Source of the DNA: Alphaproteobacteria bacterium
GTDB taxonomy: Bacteria > Pseudomonadota > Alphaproteobacteria > ATCC43930 > CGMCC-115725
Length of the DNA stretch: 64,000 nucleotides
Direction of reading: 5' to 3'
NCBI GenBank assembly: GCA_030041335.1
Contig: JASHOB010000175.1
Span: 1 to 64,000 of the forward strand
In this document: positions 17,678 through 37,185 of the stretch, one piece after another
How the letters are laid out: each line of letters starts with the position of its first letter
Position numbering within the stretch: position 1 is the first letter of the stretch
Program-made: the position numbers and the translations under genes
The notes under the pieces: model-generated
Database searches by the model: none
Told to the model about the DNA's origin: nothing
Seen by the model: only the letters and a program-made list of their open reading frames with translations

Positions 17678-18988
17678 TTACATGCTCATGGTCATGAAAT
17701 GCGCCCAGGCGCGGAAATGGTCGCGCATCAACCGCTCGGAGGTTCCGGTAGTCACGTCGTCGTTGCGGCGGATCTCGTCGGGCGCGTAGAGGCGCTGCAG
17801 ATTGAGCCACTCGTTGCCGTCGCATGCGAGGCCTTCCTGCTGCCGGCGGTACATCTCCAGGTCGTCGTGGCCGACCACCGAGGTCGGCGCGTTGACCAGC
17901 CGGTTGTACATGCAGGTTCGTTCCAGCAGCAGATCGGGGGCGCCGACCAGGCGAAAGGTCCAGGATTCGACCAGCGTACGATCAACCGCGAGCGGCCTGA
18001 AGATGCGCAGGAGCTGGATCGGCCCCTTGATCATGACATTGGGGTAGTAGACGGTATTGTGGCGGTTCTCGCCGAGAATCGCCTGCGCGCGCTCGGCACC
18101 GTAAGCCTGTGCCATCTGCTCGGCATAGCCGGGCACGGCCGAATAGTCGGAATGGATCGAGTGCGAAACGCCGGTATGGCCGTGACCGTGCTGCCAGACG
18201 CGGATGCCCATCTTCTGGAAGAAGTCGTAGGAGCTCATGAAGGGCGCGTAAATCTCCACCGCCATCGGCTTCGCGGTGCCGGCCGGCGCGCTCTTCCAGA
18301 CCGCAACGGCCGTGCCGGCCGAGGATTCGTGCACGATCATCGGATGCATGGTATCGGTCTGATTCTCCACCAGCATCTTCCAATTGCAGTCGTGCCGGTA
18401 CCGCAGCACGCCGCCCGCGACCTCGAGCCGTCCGACCGGCGAGCGATCGATCATGTTGTCGAGGCTCGAAAGCGATGCGCCGAAGAACTCCTCGAAACCC
18501 GGTCCGACGGTGCCGAGCTTGGCGAAGACGAAGCCGCGATAATTGTGGACATGCGCGACTTGGGTCATCCCGCGCACCGCGACGCTGTTCTCGAAGCCGG
18601 TATTCTCGTACTCGGCACGCAGCGGCACCGCCAGCAGGCTGCCGTCGGTGCGGAAACTCCAGGCGTGGTAGGGGCAGCGGAAAAAGCGACCGGTGTTGCC
18701 GCTTCCTTCGGTCAGCCGTGTGCCCTTATGCGGACAGCGATTGTAGAAGACCCGCACCGCGCCATCGTCGCTGCGCACCATGATCAGGGGCTGTGTACCG
18801 ATGGCGGTGCTGAAATAGTCGCCTTCATGTGGCACCTGGCTGTCATGGCCGACATAGTTCCAGGTGTTGACGAAGAGATGGCGCATTTCGAGCTCGAACA
18901 GCTCTGGGTCGATGTAGAGGTCGCGATGAACCTCGGTCTCGCGCACCAGCGCCGCGACCGCCGACTTGTCGCCGCGATACTTGCTCAT
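17678..18988 (-). CDS. aromatic-ring-hydroxylating dioxygenase, alpha subunit (second system)
   Basis: A 436-residue Rieske oxygenase large subunit and first gene of a seven-gene operon. Rieske ligands are C85 and H87 (CPHKG) and C105 and H108 (CPYHAW). The iron-binding block is ENQTDTMHPMIVH with D212, H215 and H220. A bulky acyl-CoA or free-acid ring compound is a reasonable substrate given the downstream CoA genes. No ferredoxin or reductase gene is linked. The start is the ATG at 18988. The divergent racemase-like gene starts at 19151, and a palindrome (19025-19046) lies between them. Confidence 0.93.
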   Translation of the reverse strand: MSKYRGDKSAVAALVRETEVHRDLYIDPELFELEMRHLFVNTWNYVGHDSQVPHEGDYFSTAIGTQPLIMVRSDDGAVRVFYNRCPHKGTRLTEGSGNTGRFFRCPYHAWSFRTDGSLLAVPLRAEYENTGFENSVAVRGMTQVAHVHNYRGFVFAKLGTVGPGFEEFFGASLSSLDNMIDRSPVGRLEVAGGVLRYRHDCNWKMLVENQTDTMHPMIVHESSAGTAVAVWKSAPAGTAKPMAVEIYAPFMSSYDFFQKMGIRVWQHGHGHTGVSHSIHSDYSAVPGYAEQMAQAYGAERAQAILGENRHNTVYYPNVMIKGPIQLLRIFRPLAVDRTLVESWTFRLVGAPDLLLERTCMYNRLVNAPTSVVGHDDLEMYRRQQEGLACDGNEWLNLQRLYAPDEIRRNDDVTTGTSERLMRDHFRAWAHFMTMSM

Positions 18989-27373: not shown

Positions 27374-28321
27374 TCAAGCGGAAGCGAGTACCGGGCTAAA
27401 TAATTCGTGCAACACCCGCAATACCTGTCGGCGGCGGCCATCGTCAGGTTCAAGAAGCGACAGGGTCATTTCTTCTGCTGCCAAGCTTTGCTCCATGGGG
27501 ACGCGCAGCGCGCTTCGCACCGGGATCAACGGCATTTCGAATATCTCGGTCGCGAGCCATTTTGGCAGGAGAACCTGCATTTCGCCCGCTTGGTTTTCCT
27601 TGACGATGTGGGCGGCTGCTCGCTCGAGCCGTTCGCGGGCAAGAAGCGAATTGGACGCATGCGGGGCGAGACGCCAGCAGATGGCACGCAGGGCGGTCGG
27701 TGTATGGCCGATATCGCGACACCAGCTTAGAAGCAGCCCATCAAGAACCGCCGCGGGAAAGATCTGCACGCCATTGAGAATGAGATAGATTGGCCAGACT
27801 TGTTGCGGATGCATGACCGCCTGCCCAACCAAACACAGCTTGCCCTCGGCGACAGACGCTGTGCCGCGAGCGTGATAACCAAAGCCATCCCCAAGCTCGA
27901 AGCCAAGCTTGCCATCCTCCCCGTGCAGATCGAGGACGAAGGCGAACAGACGGCGCATTCCGGTGAATGAACCGTGTATCAGCAGCCACAGCCCGCCATA
28001 GAGTGCAACACTCTCGTCAAACGCCGACGCCGTGTCGGTCACCGACGGCGAGCGGGCGGATCTTATGCCAATGCAGACGGCAAATTCGCCGAGCGGCAGG
28101 CTCCAGTCGCTACGCGAAAAATCGCCAATCTGGTGGCGCACCAGTTCAGTCAGGCGAACAATGCTTTGCTCGCCCGGACGTACCCGGCCCGACGCCCACC
28201 GCGTCGCCACCGATTTGTCGACGCCGACCGCGTGCGCAAGCTGGACGCGGCTCAAGCTCAGCCTGTCGCACATCAAACTTAGCTTTTCGGTGAAGTGTTC
28301 GATCGTAGGAGAACGCGGCAT
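27374..28321 (-). CDS. XRE-family transcriptional regulator
   Basis: About 315 residues from the ATG at 28321; a longer frame to 28399 exists, but AGGACC lies seven bases before the internal ATG. Near residues 20-60 is a helix-turn-helix (LSLSRVQLAHAVGVDKSVATRWASGRVRPGEQS). The long C-terminal part (LYGGLWLLIHGSF, LHGEDGKLGFELGDGFGYHARG) matches no sensor domain I recognise. It is divergent from the exported-cytochrome/PQQ cluster starting at 28576, making it the best local candidate to regulate that cluster. Confidence 0.8.
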   Translation of the reverse strand: MPRSPTIEHFTEKLSLMCDRLSLSRVQLAHAVGVDKSVATRWASGRVRPGEQSIVRLTELVRHQIGDFSRSDWSLPLGEFAVCIGIRSARSPSVTDTASAFDESVALYGGLWLLIHGSFTGMRRLFAFVLDLHGEDGKLGFELGDGFGYHARGTASVAEGKLCLVGQAVMHPQQVWPIYLILNGVQIFPAAVLDGLLLSWCRDIGHTPTALRAICWRLAPHASNSLLARERLERAAAHIVKENQAGEMQVLLPKWLATEIFEMPLIPVRSALRVPMEQSLAAEEMTLSLLEPDDGRRRQVLRVLHELFSPVLASA

Positions 28322-28575
28322 CGCTTGGTCCTGTTCGGAGCGGACTGTGCCACTTGGCGCATGTTCCTGCACTTTACCGCAACTCGGTCCGGCGAGCACG
28401 AGTTTGTCGAGCTCAATCGTGTTGCACAGAGTGATTTGATTGTCGTTGGTGCCGCGATCGGTGGCGGCAACCGACGTGCCTCGCAGTGCAGTTCTACGCC
28501 CGTTGCCGCAACTAGGCGCCGATCATACACAAATCATAGGATCTGAACCGTAGCAAAACTCGGGTGGAGAGCCGG

Positions 28576-29172
28576 ATGCGACCAGGCTACCGAGTGACCG
28601 GCAGCGCCGTCCTGGCGATGGTCGTTGCGGGCGGTGCGATGCTGGGGTGGGCCGCAGTTGGCCAACAGGCAGCGGCACCCCGGGACGCGAGCACCATGTT
28701 CATGCGCATCGCCACGGTGCTGCAGAGTCCGCGATGCCTGAACTGTCACACCGTCACGGATTTCCCCCGGCAGGGCGACGACCGCCACGCGCATATCTTC
28801 CTGATATCACGCGGTCCCGACGACAGGGGCTGGCCATTCGCCCGCTGTACCTCCTGCCATGGAGACGCCAACAACGACGCCACCGGTATCCCCGGCCGGC
28901 CGGATTGGCACCTCGCGCCGCTGAGCATGGGGTGGGAAGGATTGTCGCCCGCTCGGCTGTGTCACCGGTTGCTCGACCCGGCGGCGAACGGACATCGCTC
29001 GCCGCAACAGATCGCAGACCACATCACCCACGACCGGCAGTTCGTGGCCTGGGCCTGGTCGCCGGGCCGCAATCTTGCGGGTGTCGAGCGGTCGGTGCCG
29101 CCGATTCCTCACGATGAATTCGCACGCTTGGTCGAGCAATGGGTCGCGGCGGGAGCGCCCTGTCCGCAGTAG
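28576..29172 (+). CDS. exported diheme cytochrome c-type protein
   Basis: A 198-residue protein from the ATG at 28576, with GGAG six bases upstream; a GTG at 28564 would add four residues. A signal or anchor segment (residues 10-33) is followed by two haem-binding motifs: C54-x2-C57-H (CLNCH) and C91-x2-C94-H (CTSCH). The whole protein aligns with the C-terminal about 200 residues of the large PQQ dehydrogenase at 34669-37185, from FPRQGDDRHAHIF to WVAAGAPCPQ. It probably passes electrons from the PQQ dehydrogenase encoded 29 bases downstream. Confidence 0.87.
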   Translation: MRPGYRVTGSAVLAMVVAGGAMLGWAAVGQQAAAPRDASTMFMRIATVLQSPRCLNCHTVTDFPRQGDDRHAHIFLISRGPDDRGWPFARCTSCHGDANNDATGIPGRPDWHLAPLSMGWEGLSPARLCHRLLDPAANGHRSPQQIADHITHDRQFVAWAWSPGRNLAGVERSVPPIPHDEFARLVEQWVAAGAPCPQ

Positions 29173-29201
29173 CTGTTTCACGCAAGCCCGAGGAGCAAAT
29201 C

Positions 29202-31097
29202 ATGCCTTCGCGCGTCGCCTGCGTTTTCCTTGGAGGACTTCTCGCGGCATCGGTCGCGTGCCCGATGTGCGCACGCGCCCAGGCGCCCGACGAGTGGATC
29301 ACGATGAACAAGGACTATTCGAGCCAGCGCTATGTCGATCTGGATCAGATCACGCCTGCGAATGTTGGTTCGCTGAAAGAAGTCTGCGAGGTTCGGATCA
29401 ACGACCCGGCGGTCGCCGTCTTCACCAGTGGCCTGTTGATGGTGGGGCGGACGATCTACGTCAACACGCTGCGCGCGACATACGCCATTGATGCCGCCAG
29501 TTGCGATTTACGCTGGCGCTATCAGATCGCGTTCAAGAGGCCGGAGCACGGCGTTGCCAGCCGCGGATCCGGATACGGCGACGGCAAGATCTTCTTCGGC
29601 ACGGTCGACGGCCAGCTGATCGCGCTCGATGCGGAAACCGGTAAGCCGCTTTGGGACGTCGAGAACGCAATCGGCCATGGCGAGAATTTCATCTCTGCGC
29701 CGATTGCCTGGGGCGGCAAGGTATTCCTCGGGATCGGCGTCAGCGATAACGGCATACGCGGCCGGTTCATGGCTTTCGATGCCACCACCGGCAAGGAATT
29801 GTGGCGCTGGTACACTATACCGCTCGGTAACGAGCCCGGCGCCCAAAGCTGGGGGAACAAGCCTTCGGTTCCCCCGGCCGGCGGCGGATTCTGGGCGAGC
29901 GCTTCGCTCGACCCGATGACGGGCGAGGTCTTTGCTCCCGTCGCCAATCCTTTCCCCGATTACCTCGCCGCGGTCCGCCCGGGCGCCAATCTGTACACGA
30001 ACTCCATCGTGTCGTTGAACATCAGCAACGGCAAGATGAATTGGTACCATCAAGGGGTGCCGCACGATCAGCATGATTGGGATCTCGGCACGTCGCCTAC
30101 TTTGTATCGCGGCCGCAGCGGCAAGAACATGCTGGCGATCGCCGGCAAGGACGGCACGGTGCTGGGGATCGACCGCGACTCCAAGGAACTCGTGTTTCGG
30201 ACGCCGGGGACCACGCGGGCGAACGACGGCCCTATCGGCGCAAACCCAGTCCTGGTGTGTCCCGGTACACTGGGCGGGGCGCAATGGAACGGTACCTCGT
30301 ACAACCCTGACACCGGCACGCTCTACACCGGCATGGTGGATTGGTGTTGGTATTATGGCGAAGTGCCCAATCCGGCCGACCCGGCTCATCCCATTCCAAC
30401 GCCGGTCTGGAACTTCGCTGCGCCGCCGCGAGGCCAGATCACCGCGATCGACGGTGAGAGCGGCGACATACTTTGGCAGTATCGTGCCGCCGGACCGGTC
30501 CTCGCCGGACTGGTGCCGACGAAGAGCGGTCTTCTGTTCGCCGGCGACGTGCGCGGCAACCTTCTCGCCCTCGACGCCCGGACCGGGGCTGTGCTCGATC
30601 GTCTTGACGCCGGAGGGGCACTCAATAACGGGTTGATCAGCTACGCGGTCGACGGCACGCAATATGTCGCCGCGGTGGTCGGTGGCGTGGCACTGAACAC
30701 CGCCGGGGTGGCGGGGCCTTTGCGGGTGAGCATCTTCGGCCTGCACGGCAACGATACGCCAAAGATCGTGCGGCTCGTTCCGTTGCCGCGTCCCGGCAGC
30801 ACGCGGGCCGAGCAGGCTGCAAAGGAATATGACGGGGTATGCGCTGACTGCCACGGGGTGAATGCAGCCGGCGGCACATATCCGACCCTGGAGCGGCAGA
30901 CACAGCTTGCCGGCAATCCCGAAGCGCTGAAAGCGTTTCTCGCTTATGTGCCGCCACCGATGCCGCGCCTCTATCCGGGCCTCTTGAGCGACGCGGACGT
31001 CGCGCTCATTGCCGAGCATCTGAGGGTGCTTTTGACGCCGCCGTCGGCGAAGCAGGAGCCGCCGGCCGCCCAGCAAAACTCCCCGCCTCGTCCGTGA
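29202..31097 (+). CDS. PQQ-dependent dehydrogenase with C-terminal cytochrome c domain
   Basis: A 631-residue quinohaemoprotein with an AGGAG six bases before the ATG at 29202. A signal peptide (about 1-28) is followed by the eight-bladed PQQ propeller (NKDYSSQRYVDLDQITPAN, VPHDQHDWDLGTSPTLY, GGALNNGLISYAVDGTQYVAAVVGG). A cytochrome c domain carries C547-x2-C550-H. The vicinal Cys-Cys pair near the active site of methanol/ethanol dehydrogenases is absent: GVASRG stands where CCDVVNRG-like sequence is usual. It oxidises an alcohol or similar group in the periplasm. The substrate is unknown. The dedicated diheme protein is encoded immediately upstream. Confidence 0.9.
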   Translation: MPSRVACVFLGGLLAASVACPMCARAQAPDEWITMNKDYSSQRYVDLDQITPANVGSLKEVCEVRINDPAVAVFTSGLLMVGRTIYVNTLRATYAIDAASCDLRWRYQIAFKRPEHGVASRGSGYGDGKIFFGTVDGQLIALDAETGKPLWDVENAIGHGENFISAPIAWGGKVFLGIGVSDNGIRGRFMAFDATTGKELWRWYTIPLGNEPGAQSWGNKPSVPPAGGGFWASASLDPMTGEVFAPVANPFPDYLAAVRPGANLYTNSIVSLNISNGKMNWYHQGVPHDQHDWDLGTSPTLYRGRSGKNMLAIAGKDGTVLGIDRDSKELVFRTPGTTRANDGPIGANPVLVCPGTLGGAQWNGTSYNPDTGTLYTGMVDWCWYYGEVPNPADPAHPIPTPVWNFAAPPRGQITAIDGESGDILWQYRAAGPVLAGLVPTKSGLLFAGDVRGNLLALDARTGAVLDRLDAGGALNNGLISYAVDGTQYVAAVVGGVALNTAGVAGPLRVSIFGLHGNDTPKIVRLVPLPRPGSTRAEQAAKEYDGVCADCHGVNAAGGTYPTLERQTQLAGNPEALKAFLAYVPPPMPRLYPGLLSDADVALIAEHLRVLLTPPSAKQEPPAAQQNSPPRP

Positions 31098-31264
31098 TGC
31101 GCGAGCGCCGAGCCACAGGGTGGCGGACGGCCATCCCGGTTTCGCTGTGCCGAAGGCGCAGCCTTGGCCGATGGAGCGACGGCGCAGCCCGCAGGGTCCG
31201 GGCGCGGTCTCTACCGTTTCCCTGCTGTCACGTCGCTGCAATGTCTCCATTGGGGAGGACGCTG

Positions 31265-32164
31265 ATGAAGGCTCCTGTTCGCGCGATCGCGCTGGCTTTC
31301 GCGATTTTGGCGATGGTTTCCGCGCAGGCCGTCGCGGCGTCGCCGCTCGACGAGGCCATGAAAGGATACAAATACCTCCGGGGCGAGCGGCACGGCCCCA
31401 TCCTGGTCATCCGCTTCTACAATCCGCCGACAAATCTGCTGTCTGCGCCAATGACCGGCGAAATCCGCGATCTGGTGCATCGGGTGGACGCCGATGCAGC
31501 GACGCGTGTGGTCATCTTCACCGGCGGCGTGCCGGATTACTTCATCCAACATTATGACACAAGTGAAATGCTGCTACCGCCCGGCGTGACTATGCCGCCG
31601 GCCCAGTTCGCCCTCAACGCGACCGACAGAACCTATCTCGAGCTCGAGGCGCTTTCGAAGCCGACCATTGCGGCCATCAACGGGCATGCCCAAGGCGGCG
31701 GCCTCGAGCTAGCCCTGGCATGCGATTTTCGCCTCATCACTGACCCGGGCGAGCTCGGATTTGGGGAGATCACCCTGGGAATGCTCCCTGCCGCGGGCGG
31801 CACCGTGCGCCTGCCGCGACTGATCGGGATCGCCCGGGCAAAGGAGATCATCATGCTGGGGAGGAACATCGATGCCGCGACGGCGGTGCGTTATGGCGTC
31901 GTGATGAAGGCGGTTCCGCCCGATCAGCTCATGCACGAGTCGATGCAACTCGCCGAGCGGCTAGCGGCTTTCTCTCCGGCCGCCCTCAAACTCATCAAGA
32001 AGGTCATGGACGCGTCTTTCAAGATGCCTTTGGAAGATGCCCTCAAGCTTGAGGACCACTCATTCGAGGCGCTGATGGGCACCGCCGAAGCACAGCGCCT
32101 GGTCAAGAGATACGTCGAACAGAATCAGCGCTGGAATGCCTCGCAGGAGGGATTGCCGCCCTGA
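31265..32164 (+). CDS. exported crotonase (enoyl-CoA hydratase/isomerase) family protein
   Basis: A 299-residue protein from the ATG at 31265, preceded by GGGGAGG six bases upstream. Residues 1-25 look like a Sec signal (Lys/Arg, an 11-residue hydrophobic core, then AQAVAA). The rest is a crotonase fold with the oxyanion-hole segment QGGGLELAL (143-151) and FGEITLGMLP (166-175, Glu retained). CoA is not normally found in the periplasm, so an exported crotonase is unusual. It may act on a non-CoA substrate or be a structural relative. It lies between genes for other exported proteins. Confidence 0.85.
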   Translation: MKAPVRAIALAFAILAMVSAQAVAASPLDEAMKGYKYLRGERHGPILVIRFYNPPTNLLSAPMTGEIRDLVHRVDADAATRVVIFTGGVPDYFIQHYDTSEMLLPPGVTMPPAQFALNATDRTYLELEALSKPTIAAINGHAQGGGLELALACDFRLITDPGELGFGEITLGMLPAAGGTVRLPRLIGIARAKEIIMLGRNIDAATAVRYGVVMKAVPPDQLMHESMQLAERLAAFSPAALKLIKKVMDASFKMPLEDALKLEDHSFEALMGTAEAQRLVKRYVEQNQRWNASQEGLPP

Positions 32165-32199
32165 ACGCGGAGAACCGAAGCGAAGGGCGGGAGGACGAC

Positions 32200-33927
32200 A
32201 TGCTCAGGCGACCTACTTCGCGAGGCCGGTCTCTACAACACTGCTGCCTCTCCCTTGTCCTGGCGACACGGACCGGTTTCTCGCCTTTCCATGGCATCAC
32301 CCTCGGCGCCGATCGAGCCGCCAGCGAAGCGCCGCAAGTCATCTCTGCGAAGCTTCGTAACGCCCGGGTACGTCTCCAGGTTCGCGCCATTCCCGTTGGA
32401 GCGGCCGGCAGCATTCCGATTGCCGCCCCTCCCTCCCCGGAGCCACATGCTCGGTTGCGAATATTGGGCCTGTTTGCGGCACTTCTCTTGCTTCTGACAC
32501 TCGTCTCCGTCGCCGCCTCTGCCCAGTCGCAACAGAACCCCCCGACGACTGCGGCGATACCAGCAACGTCGTCAACCACCGCGCCGGCTTCCGCCCTTGC
32601 GGATCCGGCATCAGGCGATGGCTCGACCGTCGGGATTGCGGCGCCACTCGCGGTCGAGAATCCTCCCGAGTACAGCGGGATTGCGCTCAATCCGCGCGCC
32701 GTCAGCGGGCTCTTTTACTCGGGCTTGCTGCAACAAGCGCTTGGCTTGAGCCCGGACTCGGCGCTCAGGATCGGTGGAATAGTCGATCTTGGCGGCAACT
32801 GGCTCGTTTCGGGCGGGCTCGATCCGCACCGGTTGTCGGGCGATTTTGCTGCCAGCTTTGGTGCCGATGTCGATATGGAAAAAGCCTTCCACATTCCGGG
32901 CGCCGAGTTCTACGCGAGCATCGGGCTCTATCAAGGCACCAACGCCAACGGTGAAGCCGGTTCCGTTCAAGACTACGACAACCTGGCCCCCGGGATCGAT
33001 TTTCACCGCACCGAGCTTTATGAGCTGTGGTGGCACCAACGTCTTTTCGACGACCGGCTGCTCATCAAAATCGGCAAGATCAATGGCACCGCCGAGTTCG
33101 ACCAGGTCCTGATTCCTGTCCCGATCCCTCAAACCAACCTGCAGGATTGGACCATCAGCGACCTTTTGTATGCGCCCGTTGGTCTCAATCCGACATTGTT
33201 CGGCAGGCTGCCGGGTTCGCCGAATACCGCCTGGGGGGTGACGGCGTCATTTTTGCCGACAAACAGCATCTACGCCTCCTATGGGCTGTTCGACGGCAAC
33301 GGCGCGCGTGGCGTGCAAACCGGCCTGAATGTCGGACCCGACTTCAACAGCTACAAATTCAACATCGGCGAGGCCGGATACGCATGGCGCCTCGGCGACG
33401 AGGGCAAGCCGGGCCGGATCGGCGTCGGCGTTTGGGGACAGACCGGAACGCTGTTCAGCGGCAATCTGACGCCAGTCCAGGGGGCGAACGGCTTTTATGC
33501 CTTCGGGTCGCAGCGCTTGTGGTACCAGCATCCGGGCCGCGACCCGAGCGGGCTAATCGGCTTTCTCCAATTCGGTGACAGCAATTCCTCGGCAAATATC
33601 GCGACCCGCTATGTCGGCACCGGGCTGACCGCCCTCGGGCTAATCCCGGGTCGCCCGGCCGATTCGATGGGTATCGGCCTCGCCTGGAGCAAGCTGAACT
33701 CCGGGCAGTATGCGGGCGCGATCTTCTTCCCCGACGTACCCTATCCTTATCTTTCGGCAACATCCTTCCGCTCGTCTGAGACGATGCTGCAGGCCGACTA
33801 TCAGCTGGTGCTGATCCCGTACAAGCTCGTGCTGCAAGCCGCCTATACGGCGATCCCGACGCCGGGCGCGCGTCCTGGCATCCCCTGGGCAAATGCCCTG
33901 ACGCTGCGCCTGGCAACCATCTTCTAA
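32200..33927 (+). CDS. OprB-like carbohydrate-selective porin family protein
   Basis: An outer-membrane beta-barrel of up to 575 residues. The barrel part has OprB-family features: DVDMEKAFHIPGAEFYASIG, FHRTELYELWWHQRLFDDRLLIKIGKING, and a C-terminal Phe. The true start is uncertain. The signal-like helix LRILGLFAALLLLL lies near residue 90, so translation may begin at a TTG near 32455. That would leave the N-terminal Arg-rich stretch untranslated. OprB porins pass sugars and aromatic or small organic compounds. Here it would let a substrate reach the PQQ dehydrogenases. Confidence 0.85.
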   Translation: MLRRPTSRGRSLQHCCLSLVLATRTGFSPFHGITLGADRAASEAPQVISAKLRNARVRLQVRAIPVGAAGSIPIAAPPSPEPHARLRILGLFAALLLLLTLVSVAASAQSQQNPPTTAAIPATSSTTAPASALADPASGDGSTVGIAAPLAVENPPEYSGIALNPRAVSGLFYSGLLQQALGLSPDSALRIGGIVDLGGNWLVSGGLDPHRLSGDFAASFGADVDMEKAFHIPGAEFYASIGLYQGTNANGEAGSVQDYDNLAPGIDFHRTELYELWWHQRLFDDRLLIKIGKINGTAEFDQVLIPVPIPQTNLQDWTISDLLYAPVGLNPTLFGRLPGSPNTAWGVTASFLPTNSIYASYGLFDGNGARGVQTGLNVGPDFNSYKFNIGEAGYAWRLGDEGKPGRIGVGVWGQTGTLFSGNLTPVQGANGFYAFGSQRLWYQHPGRDPSGLIGFLQFGDSNSSANIATRYVGTGLTALGLIPGRPADSMGIGLAWSKLNSGQYAGAIFFPDVPYPYLSATSFRSSETMLQADYQLVLIPYKLVLQAAYTAIPTPGARPGIPWANALTLRLATIF

Positions 33928-33949
33928 CCGGACCCGGGAGGAATCGGAC

Positions 33950-34363
33950 ATGAGGCACTTGACCAGATTAACGATCAGCCTGGTGATGGCGGCATCGACC
34001 ACAGCGCTTTCGGCGCAGGCGCAACAAACCAGCCCCGGCATCGAAGGTCTCCTCGACCAAACGGTCGAAAAAAGCCAGCTGGGTCCGCGACAGGAAATGC
34101 GGGTGTTCACGACGGTGCTAGCGCCTGCAGCAAAGCTGCAGCGAAGTTATCATCCCGGAATCGAGACCTTCTACGTCCTCGAGGGTGCAATAACGGTCGA
34201 GTTTGCCGGAGAACCGCCCAAAACCGTGAAGGCGGGCGAAGCTTTGGTCGAGCCGCCTTATTCGGCGCATACCGGCTACAACCCGAGCGCCACGGAGCCA
34301 GCGAAACTGCTGAACATCTACGTCAGCAATCCAGGGGCCCCGTTCGTCGTATCGGTTCCCTAG
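33950..34363 (+). CDS. exported cupin-domain protein
   Basis: A 137-residue protein with a signal peptide (RLTISLVMAASTTALSAQAQ) and a single cupin barrel. The metal motif is RSYHPGIETFYVLEGAITVEF (H and E ligands), with a second His in EPPYSAHTGY. GGAGG precedes the ATG. It follows the porin gene by 22 bases and precedes the second PQQ dehydrogenase. Function is unknown; metal-dependent isomerase, dioxygenase or binding roles are possible. Confidence 0.85.
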   Translation: MRHLTRLTISLVMAASTTALSAQAQQTSPGIEGLLDQTVEKSQLGPRQEMRVFTTVLAPAAKLQRSYHPGIETFYVLEGAITVEFAGEPPKTVKAGEALVEPPYSAHTGYNPSATEPAKLLNIYVSNPGAPFVVSVP

Positions 34364-34668
34364 AATTGTGGCGCGCTCGCTCGGACTTGGTTCAGCCGAA
34401 AGGCTTTTGACTGGCTCGACCAGGTCCTCGACCTCAGCCGCGCGAACGCCAACGCTGCCACAAGCGACAGGGCCGCGATAAAGATGCCTGACGCTCACTT
34501 ACATGGTCGCCCCGCGGCAAGGCCGCGTCAGGGTTCCGCCAGCCCCGGCCGCCAAGCTCAATTTGAGGCCGAAGAGCAGCGTCAGCAGGGCGGGCCAAAT
34601 CGACGACGGGGGACGCGTTGATCGCAACATACGTTCAAACGCCCTTGCTGCGTCACGGGAGACATGCC
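34364..34668. other. gap between cupin and second PQQ dehydrogenase
   Basis: About 305 bases with no supported gene. Short open frames in both directions lack ribosome sites and family features. It may hold a promoter for the gene at 34669. Confidence 0.4.
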
Positions 34669-37185
34669 ATGGGCTTATTCCATGTTTCAGGTTGCGTGCG
34701 CTTCGGGCGATTAGTCGCTATCGGGCTTGTCGCTGGTTGCGCCCTCGCCCCCCTTGCCGGCGCGGCGCTGGCCGCCGACGACTGGACCACGATCAATAAG
34801 GACTACTCCAGCCAGCGCTATGTCGATTTGGACCAGATAACCCCGGCCAATGCCGGCCAACTCAAAGAGATTTGCGAGATCCGGCTCAACGAGCCGATCG
34901 TGTTCAGTAGCGGACTTCTGAAGGTCGGGAACACGCTCTACGTCAACACGGCGCACCTCTCGGTCGCGTTTGACGCGACCACGTGTGACTTACGCTGGCG
35001 AGATGTGATTTCGCCAAAAGGACCCCAAGCCGGAGACAACAATCGAGGATCGGCCTATCTCGAGGGCAGAATCTTCCGTGGTACGACCGACGGCCGCCTG
35101 ATCGCGCTAGACGCAAAGACGGGACGGTCGCTCTGGGACGTCCAAGGCGCAAATCCTGCCCTCGGAGAATTATTCTCCGCGGCGCCGATTGCCTGGCAGG
35201 GCAAGGTCTTTATCGGCATCGGGGTCAGCGATTTCGGCGTCGCCGGGCGCCTGATGGCATTCGATGCCGATACCGGCAAGGAACTATGGCGTTTCAACAC
35301 CACGCTCGGCGCCCGAGCGGGCGGCGGCTCATGGGCAACCTATTCCCTCGATCCTACCACCGGCGAAGTATTCGGTCCGGTCGGCAACCCCTTTCCCGAC
35401 TGGAACCGCAACGTCGCAGCGGGCGACAGGAATCTCACCAAATATACCGACTCTGTCATCGCGGTAGACACGGCCACTGGCCGCTTGAACTGGTCCTACC
35501 AAGTCGTTCCGCAGGATGAGCATGATTGGGATCTGGCCGCCGCGCCGACGCTCTATCGGACAGCGTCGGGCAAGGACATGATCGCCCTTGCCGGGAAGAG
35601 TGGTCGCGTCTATGGCATCGATCGCCAGACCCGCTTGCTCGTCTTCAACACCCCGGCAACGACGATCGAAAACGACCAGGTCCCCGTGAACGAGGACTGG
35701 ATGCGTGTTTGTCCGGGCGTGCAGGGGGGCGCAATGTTCAATGGCGCAGCCTATGACCCGGCTATCGGCACGCTCTATGTCGGTATGAACGACCATTGCG
35801 CGTGGTATATCAGCGGGCGCCAATTCGGAGATCCGGTGTTTGCGGGGATAGGCGGCACCGCCGTCAAGGACTGGCCGGCGGCGGCAAGGCTTGAGGCGCC
35901 CCGCGGCTGGATCACGGCGATCAACGGAAAAACCGGAGCCGTGTCATGGCAATATCACGCTGAAGCGCAAGTGCAGGCCGGCATGGTGCCGACCAAGAGC
36001 GGGCTGCTCTTCGCTGGCGATACGCACGGCAACCTTCTGGTCTTCGATGCCAGGAACGGTTTCCTCTTGAAAAAGATCGATGCCGGAGGCGCCCTCAACA
36101 GCGGCTTGATCAGCTATTCGGTCGGTGGCACGCAATATGTCGCGGCTACGGTCGGCGGCGCCACCGAGAATCCGAGCACCGTCGCGGGGCCACTGCGGGT
36201 GAGCATTTATGGCCTCCATGCCGGTCCGGAACCGAAAATCATCACTCTTCCGCGTTTGGAGCCTCAGCCGTCACCGGGGCAGACCGTGAACGAAGCCGTC
36301 TATTTGGATGCATGCTCCCAGTGCCATGGTGTAGCCGGAACCGGCTCAAGCGCTCCACCGTTCACCCGACAAAGTCAGCTGGCCGATCCTGCGCGCCTCA
36401 AGCAATTCCTCGCCACGGTGCCGCCCCCAATGCCGCGCCTCTACCCCGGCGTTCTGCAAGATCAAGACGTGGAAATGATCGCCGCCTATCTGAGGACGGC
36501 GGTCTTCAAATGCGGTCCCAATGAAATCCAGAGCTGCGAATTGCCAGCGCCGCCGAGGAGCGGCGGGACAAAGGAGTGGCGGGCCATCTATTCTGTGCTG
36601 ACATCGCCGCGTTGCCTCAATTGTCATCCGGTAAAATCCAATTTGCCCCGCTGGCCCCGCACGTCAGACAACTCGGGAGATGTGCAGGACTATCCACGTC
36701 AGGGCGACGATCGCCATCCGCATTACTTTCAAGTGCTGCGCGGGGACACAACGGCATTTGAGACGGCTGAAAAAACCGGGATTGTCCATCCTGGAATAGG
36801 AACGCCCTATGAGCGCTGCACATTCTGTCACGGCCCCGTCAACGATGCGAAGACTGGCATCCCCGGCACCAGCAATCCCGATTTCAACCCGGGTGAGCCG
36901 TTTTGGCTTTTGGCGCCGGCTTCGATGGCCTGGGAGTCAGCGCCGGGTGTGCCGATGACCGGCGCGCAGCTGTGCGCGCAGCTCAAGGATCGGGCACGGA
37001 ACGGCAATCGAAGTTTGGCGGATATCCAGCATCACCTTGAAACCGAGCCTCTCGTCAATTGGGCATGGAATCCGGGCACGCGACCCAATGGCCAACCGCG
37101 GACAACGCCGCCGATAAGCCATCGCGAGCTGCTTGCGGATTTCCAAAAATGGATCGCTGGCGGCGCGCCCTGCCCGACTGATTGA
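34669..37185 (+). CDS. large PQQ-dependent dehydrogenase with fused cytochrome c and diheme domains (three haem sites)
   Basis: An 838-residue exported quinohaemoprotein from the ATG at 34669, with GGGAGA nine bases upstream. Residues 1-38 are a signal peptide. The PQQ propeller follows (NKDYSSQRYVDLDQITPAN, VPQDEHDWDLAAAPTLYRT). A first haem motif is C549-x2-C552-H. A fused diheme module adds C649-x2-C652-H and C717-x2-C720-H. The diheme module is the homologue of the separate protein at 28576-29172. As in the paralogue at 29202, there is no vicinal Cys-Cys pair. It is a natural fusion of the two-gene unit upstream. Confidence 0.9.
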   Translation: MGLFHVSGCVRFGRLVAIGLVAGCALAPLAGAALAADDWTTINKDYSSQRYVDLDQITPANAGQLKEICEIRLNEPIVFSSGLLKVGNTLYVNTAHLSVAFDATTCDLRWRDVISPKGPQAGDNNRGSAYLEGRIFRGTTDGRLIALDAKTGRSLWDVQGANPALGELFSAAPIAWQGKVFIGIGVSDFGVAGRLMAFDADTGKELWRFNTTLGARAGGGSWATYSLDPTTGEVFGPVGNPFPDWNRNVAAGDRNLTKYTDSVIAVDTATGRLNWSYQVVPQDEHDWDLAAAPTLYRTASGKDMIALAGKSGRVYGIDRQTRLLVFNTPATTIENDQVPVNEDWMRVCPGVQGGAMFNGAAYDPAIGTLYVGMNDHCAWYISGRQFGDPVFAGIGGTAVKDWPAAARLEAPRGWITAINGKTGAVSWQYHAEAQVQAGMVPTKSGLLFAGDTHGNLLVFDARNGFLLKKIDAGGALNSGLISYSVGGTQYVAATVGGATENPSTVAGPLRVSIYGLHAGPEPKIITLPRLEPQPSPGQTVNEAVYLDACSQCHGVAGTGSSAPPFTRQSQLADPARLKQFLATVPPPMPRLYPGVLQDQDVEMIAAYLRTAVFKCGPNEIQSCELPAPPRSGGTKEWRAIYSVLTSPRCLNCHPVKSNLPRWPRTSDNSGDVQDYPRQGDDRHPHYFQVLRGDTTAFETAEKTGIVHPGIGTPYERCTFCHGPVNDAKTGIPGTSNPDFNPGEPFWLLAPASMAWESAPGVPMTGAQLCAQLKDRARNGNRSLADIQHHLETEPLVNWAWNPGTRPNGQPRTTPPISHRELLADFQKWIAGGAPCPTD

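Follow-up and report, generated by a model that had tools for sequence, protein, structure and literature searches.

In the accessible part of PMC12997753, the Pseudomonas ped/exa cluster is described as combining a periplasmic pyrroloquinoline quinone (PQQ) enzyme that carries a Cys pair, a c-type cytochrome and dedicated regulation, and that part describes no crotonase, porin or cupin. The type II quinohaemoprotein alcohol dehydrogenases (ADHs; 1kv9, 1kb0, 1yiq; TIGR03075) are exported proteins in which a PQQ propeller is followed by a C-terminal haem c. Polyvinyl alcohol (PVA) is degraded by periplasmic PQQ oxidation and then by a further exported enzyme, the oxidised-PVA hydrolase. To our knowledge, nearly all characterised crotonases use thioesters of coenzyme A (CoA). 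Here we analyse a locus that resembles the first three of these systems and includes a crotonase with an export signal. It lies in a 64,000-nucleotide stretch of an alphaproteobacterial contig (JASHOB010000175.1, positions 1 to 64,000; hereafter the window). As in the ped/exa cluster, a periplasmic PQQ enzyme, a c-type cytochrome and a dedicated regulator come together; unlike in the PVA degradation operon, there is no α/β-type oxidised-PVA hydrolase among the genes, and a crotonase is present instead. We consider the chances about even that the locus encodes a regulated periplasmic oxidation module with a CoA-free exported crotonase step. The module is a variant of the quinohaemoprotein oxidation systems, and a demonstration of CoA-free catalysis could make it more than that. 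If the reading is true, crotonase chemistry that is usually tied to CoA thioesters would run outside the cytoplasm, and a natural exported family would serve as a model for CoA-free crotonase catalysis, a goal of chemists. The module also offers a testable case of a multi-step periplasmic catabolic route, beyond a single oxidation. Among the papers listed by a literature search there was no named system with this set of genes, as had been anticipated.

The original prediction described six exported or barrel-forming genes on the plus strand between 28576 and 37185, and all six are present. Two further features, a divergent regulator and a predicted operator, had been missed, as had the relation between the cytochromes of the PQQ proteins and the loss of CoA-binding residues from the crotonase. 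The features are as follows:

27374-28399, minus strand: helix-turn-helix (HTH; Cro/C1-type) regulator, divergent from the operon; weak match to HTH_31; orthologues stand beside diheme-PQQ1
28486-28512, plus strand: predicted operator GTGCAGT-N9-GTTGCCGCAAC, with the palindrome at 28502-28512; aligned across six diheme promoters
28576-29172, plus strand: diheme c-type cytochrome (P0006); two CxxCH motifs; 40% identical to the C-terminus of PQQ2
29202-31097, plus strand: PQQ1, exported quinohaemoprotein dehydrogenase-like protein; PF01011 and PF13442; pocket residues discussed below
31265-32164, plus strand: exported crotonase (P0003); ECH_1; orthologues 72-81% identical; residues compared below
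32200-33927, plus strand: OprB-family carbohydrate-type porin; PF04966; orthologue in one other genome (G675); start uncertain
33950-34363, plus strand: small exported cupin (P0005), part of unit B; PF07883; paralogue on contig C27
34669-37185, plus strand: PQQ2, exported propeller with a single haem c and, at its C-terminus, a diheme domain; CxxCH at residues 549, 649 and 717

Matches above the Pfam cut-off were obtained for the PQQ propeller and C-terminal cytochrome of both PQQ1 and PQQ2, and for ECH_1, OprB and Cupin_2. The diheme protein matched no Pfam family, despite its two CxxCH motifs. In all six products an N-terminal hydrophobic segment is followed by an AxA-type site, as judged by a simple heuristic and not by SignalP; by the same heuristic, a cytoplasmic enoyl-CoA hydratase of the window genome, used as a control, has no signal-like segment. 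Scans for sigma-70 promoters and terminators gave no signal above shuffle level.

Residues of the exported crotonase

The crotonase matches PF00378 (ECH_1) with an E value of 3.6e-50, and its signal-peptide-like N-terminal extension of about 25-34 residues is kept in five copies, those of the window and of four relatives. In rat enoyl-CoA hydratase (ECH), the catalytic residues are Glu144 and Glu164, the phosphates of CoA are bound by Lys92, Lys101 and Lys282, and the oxyanion hole is formed by Ala98 and Gly141 and shaped even by the adenine part of CoA (PMC13126182). We transferred these positions to the exported crotonases by alignment, using motifs. Like other members of the superfamily (1dub, 9rgs), the exported proteins have the crotonase domain and the catalytic residues: both glutamates are retained in all four full-length copies, and Gly141 in all five. 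Unlike these members, they have an export signal, and the CoA-binding positions are changed. Lys92 is replaced by Asp or Gly in every copy and Lys282 by Gln in the four that cover this position, while Lys101 is Ser in three copies and Arg in two. The window crotonase has Asp, Ser and Gln at the three positions and so has lost all three lysines. Ala98 is replaced by Tyr or Phe (5/5). Among 12 control crotonases from the window genome and others, the residue at position 92 is basic in 11 and that at position 98 is small in all 12; position 282 is basic in 10 of 10.

The ratio of nonsynonymous to synonymous substitution rates (dN/dS) between the window crotonase and its relatives is 0.20-0.39, and the gene is therefore under constraint. 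Overall, catalysis seems to be retained and CoA handling lost, a pattern consistent with export to a CoA-free compartment. Having apparently lost its grip on CoA, the protein probably acts outside the cytoplasm on free molecules that carry no CoA, and it is predicted not to depend on CoA.

The exported crotonase also carries the loop F-x-x-H-x-D in place of AAGAD. This loop is not unique to it, since the solved structures 3gkb and 3h0u, putative enoyl-CoA hydratases whose entry titles assign no function, have it too. A structure model of the crotonase had low confidence (predicted local distance difference test, pLDDT, 66), and its best matches were crotonases. Among the papers listed by a literature search there was no report of a periplasmic or exported crotonase, and the available part of PMC6370202, which concerns crotonases, describes no exported one.

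Recurrence, two units and a predicted operator

The original prediction read the six genes as what looks like a full route, to be checked by their co-occurrence in other genomes and by transcript data for one regulon, and a search for co-occurrence bore out only part of this reading. Close to the window genome little was found: 60 relatives and 385 genomes of its class contain no crotonase orthologue besides the window's own, and the nearest PQQ homologues beyond the genome's own copies are distant (36-38% in the 60 relatives, and a single further one among the class members). The crotonases listed from plasmid records were all of the ordinary kind, at 33-38%, and the PQQ proteins were at 33-40%, none with full coverage. 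A scan of a genome collection with a PQQ alignment led to an Acetobacteraceae metagenome-assembled genome (MAG; L024, G422), a gammaproteobacterial MAG (L023, G421) and two distant matches. In the Acetobacteraceae-type family of G422, 4 of 299 sampled genomes contain PQQ1 (E <= 1e-120) and 4 of 397 contain the crotonase (E <= 1e-50), in counts from which MAG incompleteness can hide genes. The carriers are the same four genomes, G422, G481, G556 and G675, so that these core genes are not scattered in the way that would have spoken against the original prediction.

The gene order is also partly conserved. The crotonase adjoins PQQ1 in two of the carriers, and in the other two it stands beside a decayed PQQ1. 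On contig C801 of G422, a PQQ2-like 3' end and transposase-like pieces are followed by a regulator orthologue, the diheme gene, PQQ1 (81% identity) and the exported crotonase (80% as far as the contig end). In G675, PQQ1 (85%), the crotonase (80%) and the porin (57%) follow one another as in the window; this is the one genome in which a porin orthologue (57-58%) recurs directly after the crotonase. G481 and G556 each contain two diheme-PQQ1 copies, one of which has the regulator beside it in both genomes, and a truncated regulator lies at the second copy of G556. Regulator orthologues adjoining diheme-PQQ1 in G422, G481 and G556 are 64-68% identical. The detached crotonases of G481 and G556 lie directly 3' of decayed PQQ1 C-termini (47 residues at 57% and 21 residues at 76%, respectively), and from these remnants the ancestral PQQ1-crotonase order is visible in all carriers. 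Since most of the arrangement recurs elsewhere, it is more than chance.

In G422 (L041, 1709-3976), transposase-like fragments separate the PQQ2 block from the regulator-diheme-PQQ1 block. These fragments, together with the low synonymous divergence (dS, 0.35) between the window and G675 crotonases, hint at horizontal transfer.

The cupin and PQQ2 do not belong to this conserved core. No cupin homologue was found at E <= 1e-8 in the five other genomes tested, and PQQ2-like genes occur outside the window genome only in G422 and G421, being absent from G481, G556 and G675. The PQQ2-like gene of G421 is preceded by an unrelated 395-residue exported-looking protein (L023, 4457-8835) and is split by a frameshift in the present assembly. 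By contrast with the single set originally proposed, diheme-PQQ1 recurs, in part with the crotonase and porin. The diheme cytochrome and the C-terminal domain of PQQ2 are homologues (40% identity, E 2e-40), both CxxCH motifs of the cytochrome are conserved in nine homologues, and the CxxCH motifs number one in PQQ1 and three in PQQ2; PQQ1 with the diheme protein is therefore the split equivalent of PQQ2. Contig C27 of the window genome (L021, 1-4059) holds a paralogous cluster with an exported cupin 65-70% identical to P0005, a Tat-type exported α/β hydrolase and a PQQ protein 75% identical to PQQ2. The nucleophile elbow of this hydrolase is HATGG, in which the nucleophile Ser has given way to Ala. 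From the paralogy and the split/fused relation it follows that the six genes are two units rather than one. Unit A consists of the diheme cytochrome, PQQ1, the exported crotonase and the OprB porin, with the divergent HTH regulator; unit B, the cupin and PQQ2, is a paralogue of the C27 cluster placed next to unit A here.

The upstream regions of diheme genes at six loci aligned in a single conserved block, GTGCARY-N9-GTTGCNGCAAC, whose spacing is identical in the three loci checked. The 212 kb of sequence collected contain six exact copies of the palindrome GTTGCNGCAAC, against an expectation of 0.24-0.27. All six copies are at module promoters, only before a diheme gene or a detached crotonase: four precede diheme genes (the window, 28502-28512, and three in G481), and two lie ~65-75 bp 5' of the detached crotonases of G556 and G481. 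The latter two genomes are mutually similar, and their crotonase sites count as one event. Degenerate copies of the palindrome were found in G422 and at the remaining loci. Because the palindrome is shared by diheme genes and detached crotonases, a shared regulon is likely, with the crotonase and diheme-PQQ1 likely under the same regulator; the core module is narrowly distributed and probably co-regulated. For these genes the shared predicted operator points to one regulon; the cupin and PQQ2 lie outside the conserved core. The adjacent HTH protein would be the simplest candidate for the regulator and would then pair with this operator.

At loci L067 (2150-2390) and L068 (10830-11080), detached crotonases each have an exact GTTGCNGCAAC and a decayed PQQ1 C-terminus upstream. 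This observation suggests that the dehydrogenase was lost and the crotonase and its operator were retained.

Quinoproteins and PQQ supply

The closest solved relatives of PQQ1 are the quinohaemoprotein ADHs 1yiq, 8gy2 and 1kv9. The cofactor-pocket Arg, Thr, Trp, Asn, Asp and Lys of the type II enzymes are mostly kept in PQQ1 and PQQ2, and the motifs HDWD, VANP/VGNP, GGGxW and GKxG, which provide the catalytic Asp, Asn, Trp and Lys, are present in the window and C27 copies. Unlike the type II enzymes, PQQ1 and PQQ2 have a separate or a fused diheme partner. A structure model of the diheme protein (pLDDT 55) gave no significant structural match and was uninformative.

We rejected the idea that PQQ1 and PQQ2 lack a supply of cofactor, because the window genome encodes PqqC, PqqD and a PqqE interrupted by a contig end. 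A lanthanide-type active site was rejected as well, since the motif (HDWDLG/A) lacks the second Asp. A different PQQ dehydrogenase of the same genome (L004, on contig C140), with a Cys-Cys pair and the motif DEWDYDG, looks to be of the lanthanide (XoxF) type. Use of PQQ by PQQ1 and PQQ2 is likely.

Proposed route and alternatives

In the proposed route, a small hydrophilic substrate would enter through the OprB-type porin, and PQQ1 would oxidise an alcohol group of it in the periplasm. Electrons would pass through three haems in all, first the one in PQQ1 itself and then those of the separate diheme cytochrome, before they reach the respiratory chain. The crotonase would then act on the carbonyl product, which is oxidised and free of CoA, and enolate chemistry of its two glutamates is the most likely mechanism; the reaction could be a cleavage of a β-hydroxy- or β-dicarbonyl, or a conjugated carbonyl could be hydrated or dehydrated. 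The neighbouring HTH regulator would control the unit through GTGCARY-N9-GTTGCNGCAAC. We infer PQQ occupancy, the electron path, the independence of CoA, the pairing of regulator and operator, and the reaction type; gene content, export signals, recurrence, the split and fused cytochromes, the residues of the crotonase and the statistics of the operator are read from the sequences themselves. For the crotonase in particular we tentatively propose a CoA-independent periplasmic hydratase or lyase that employs the glutamate pair of enoyl-CoA hydratase and acts on free unsaturated or β-oxygenated carbonyls made in place by the PQQ enzyme.

Several observations weigh against this route. An adjacent-cysteine disulphide near PQQ is given as a feature of PQQ alcohol dehydrogenases in the accessible part of PMC12997753, and no adjacent-Cys (CC) motif was found in any of the 13 PQQ-family sequences or fragments scanned. 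PQQ1 and PQQ2 also have Asp at the position expected for the Ca-ligand Glu. Against TIGR03075 they score 269.6 and 243.1 bits, with a cut-off of 480.05; neither reaches the NCBIfam cut-offs, and their scores against a group named for lacking PQQ are similar, slightly better in the case of PQQ1. In the crotonase, an ECH-like reaction could be altered or prevented by the aromatic residue at the oxyanion loop, and Arg at position 101 in two relatives makes residual binding of a charged ligand possible. Finally, the linkage of the crotonase to PQQ1 is gone in G481 and G556, and the four carriers may be relatives of one another, in which case the co-occurrence would not represent four independent events.

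The loss of the CoA-binding residues and the bulky residue at the oxyanion loop would also fit an exported crotonase that is non-enzymatic or vestigial (binding or chaperone-like), with the rest of the module an ordinary quinohaemoprotein alcohol dehydrogenase and its cytochrome. The four loci in G481 and G556 at which PQQ1 has no adjoining crotonase point in the same direction. However, every full-length exported copy keeps the catalytic glutamates and all five keep Gly141, the dN/dS values given above speak against it, and in G481 and G556 the gene was retained with an exact operator after the adjoining PQQ1 had decayed. We therefore consider this explanation unlikely. A periplasmic enzyme that works on a CoA thioester or a pantetheine-like conjugate would explain why the glutamates are those of enoyl-CoA hydratase, but it is hard to reconcile with the Asp and Gln that replace the phosphate-binding lysines. 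We know of no periplasmic CoA pool, and we give this possibility only the slimmest of chances.

Two exported PQQ-type dehydrogenases with cytochromes, and an exported α/β hydrolase beside the PQQ gene of the C27 cluster, recall PVA degradation. In a route of that kind, the PQQ enzymes would turn 1,3-diols into β-diketones, and the crotonase would replace the α/β hydrolase in cleaving them. Some crotonases, such as 6-oxocamphor hydrolase, do cleave β-diketones without CoA. Nevertheless, the glutamate pair is what we take to be that of enoyl-CoA hydratase and not of a diketone hydrolase, the C27 hydrolase lacks its nucleophile, no match to a PVA dehydrogenase or hydrolase family was obtained, and a polymer is ill suited to an OprB porin. 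This makes a PVA-like route decidedly improbable. The adjacency of all six genes on one strand might instead reflect a single pathway in which the cupin and PQQ2 are obligatory steps. The absence of the cupin from all other carriers and of PQQ2 from three of them, together with a gap of about 255-305 bp between the two genes, makes such a pathway very improbable.

The porin assigned to the entry step matches PF04966 with 96.4 bits (cut-off 22.9, E 3e-27), and a homologue at 40% is present in G421. Its ATG at 32200 is preceded by a good ribosome-binding sequence. Between 32200 and 32460 there are about 85 extra codons before a signal-like segment near 32455, unlike in the G675 orthologue, whose signal-like segment is at the very start. 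A rearrangement or a mis-assigned start is possible at the N-terminus of the window porin.

Elsewhere in the window, positions 367-21131 contain a dense set of catabolic genes, as identified by Pfam matches. It includes two Rieske ring-hydroxylating alpha subunits (881-2230 and 17678-18988), AMP-dependent ligases, a cyclase, a thiolase-like protein, an amidohydrolase, and a branched-chain-type periplasmic binding protein with an ABC transporter.

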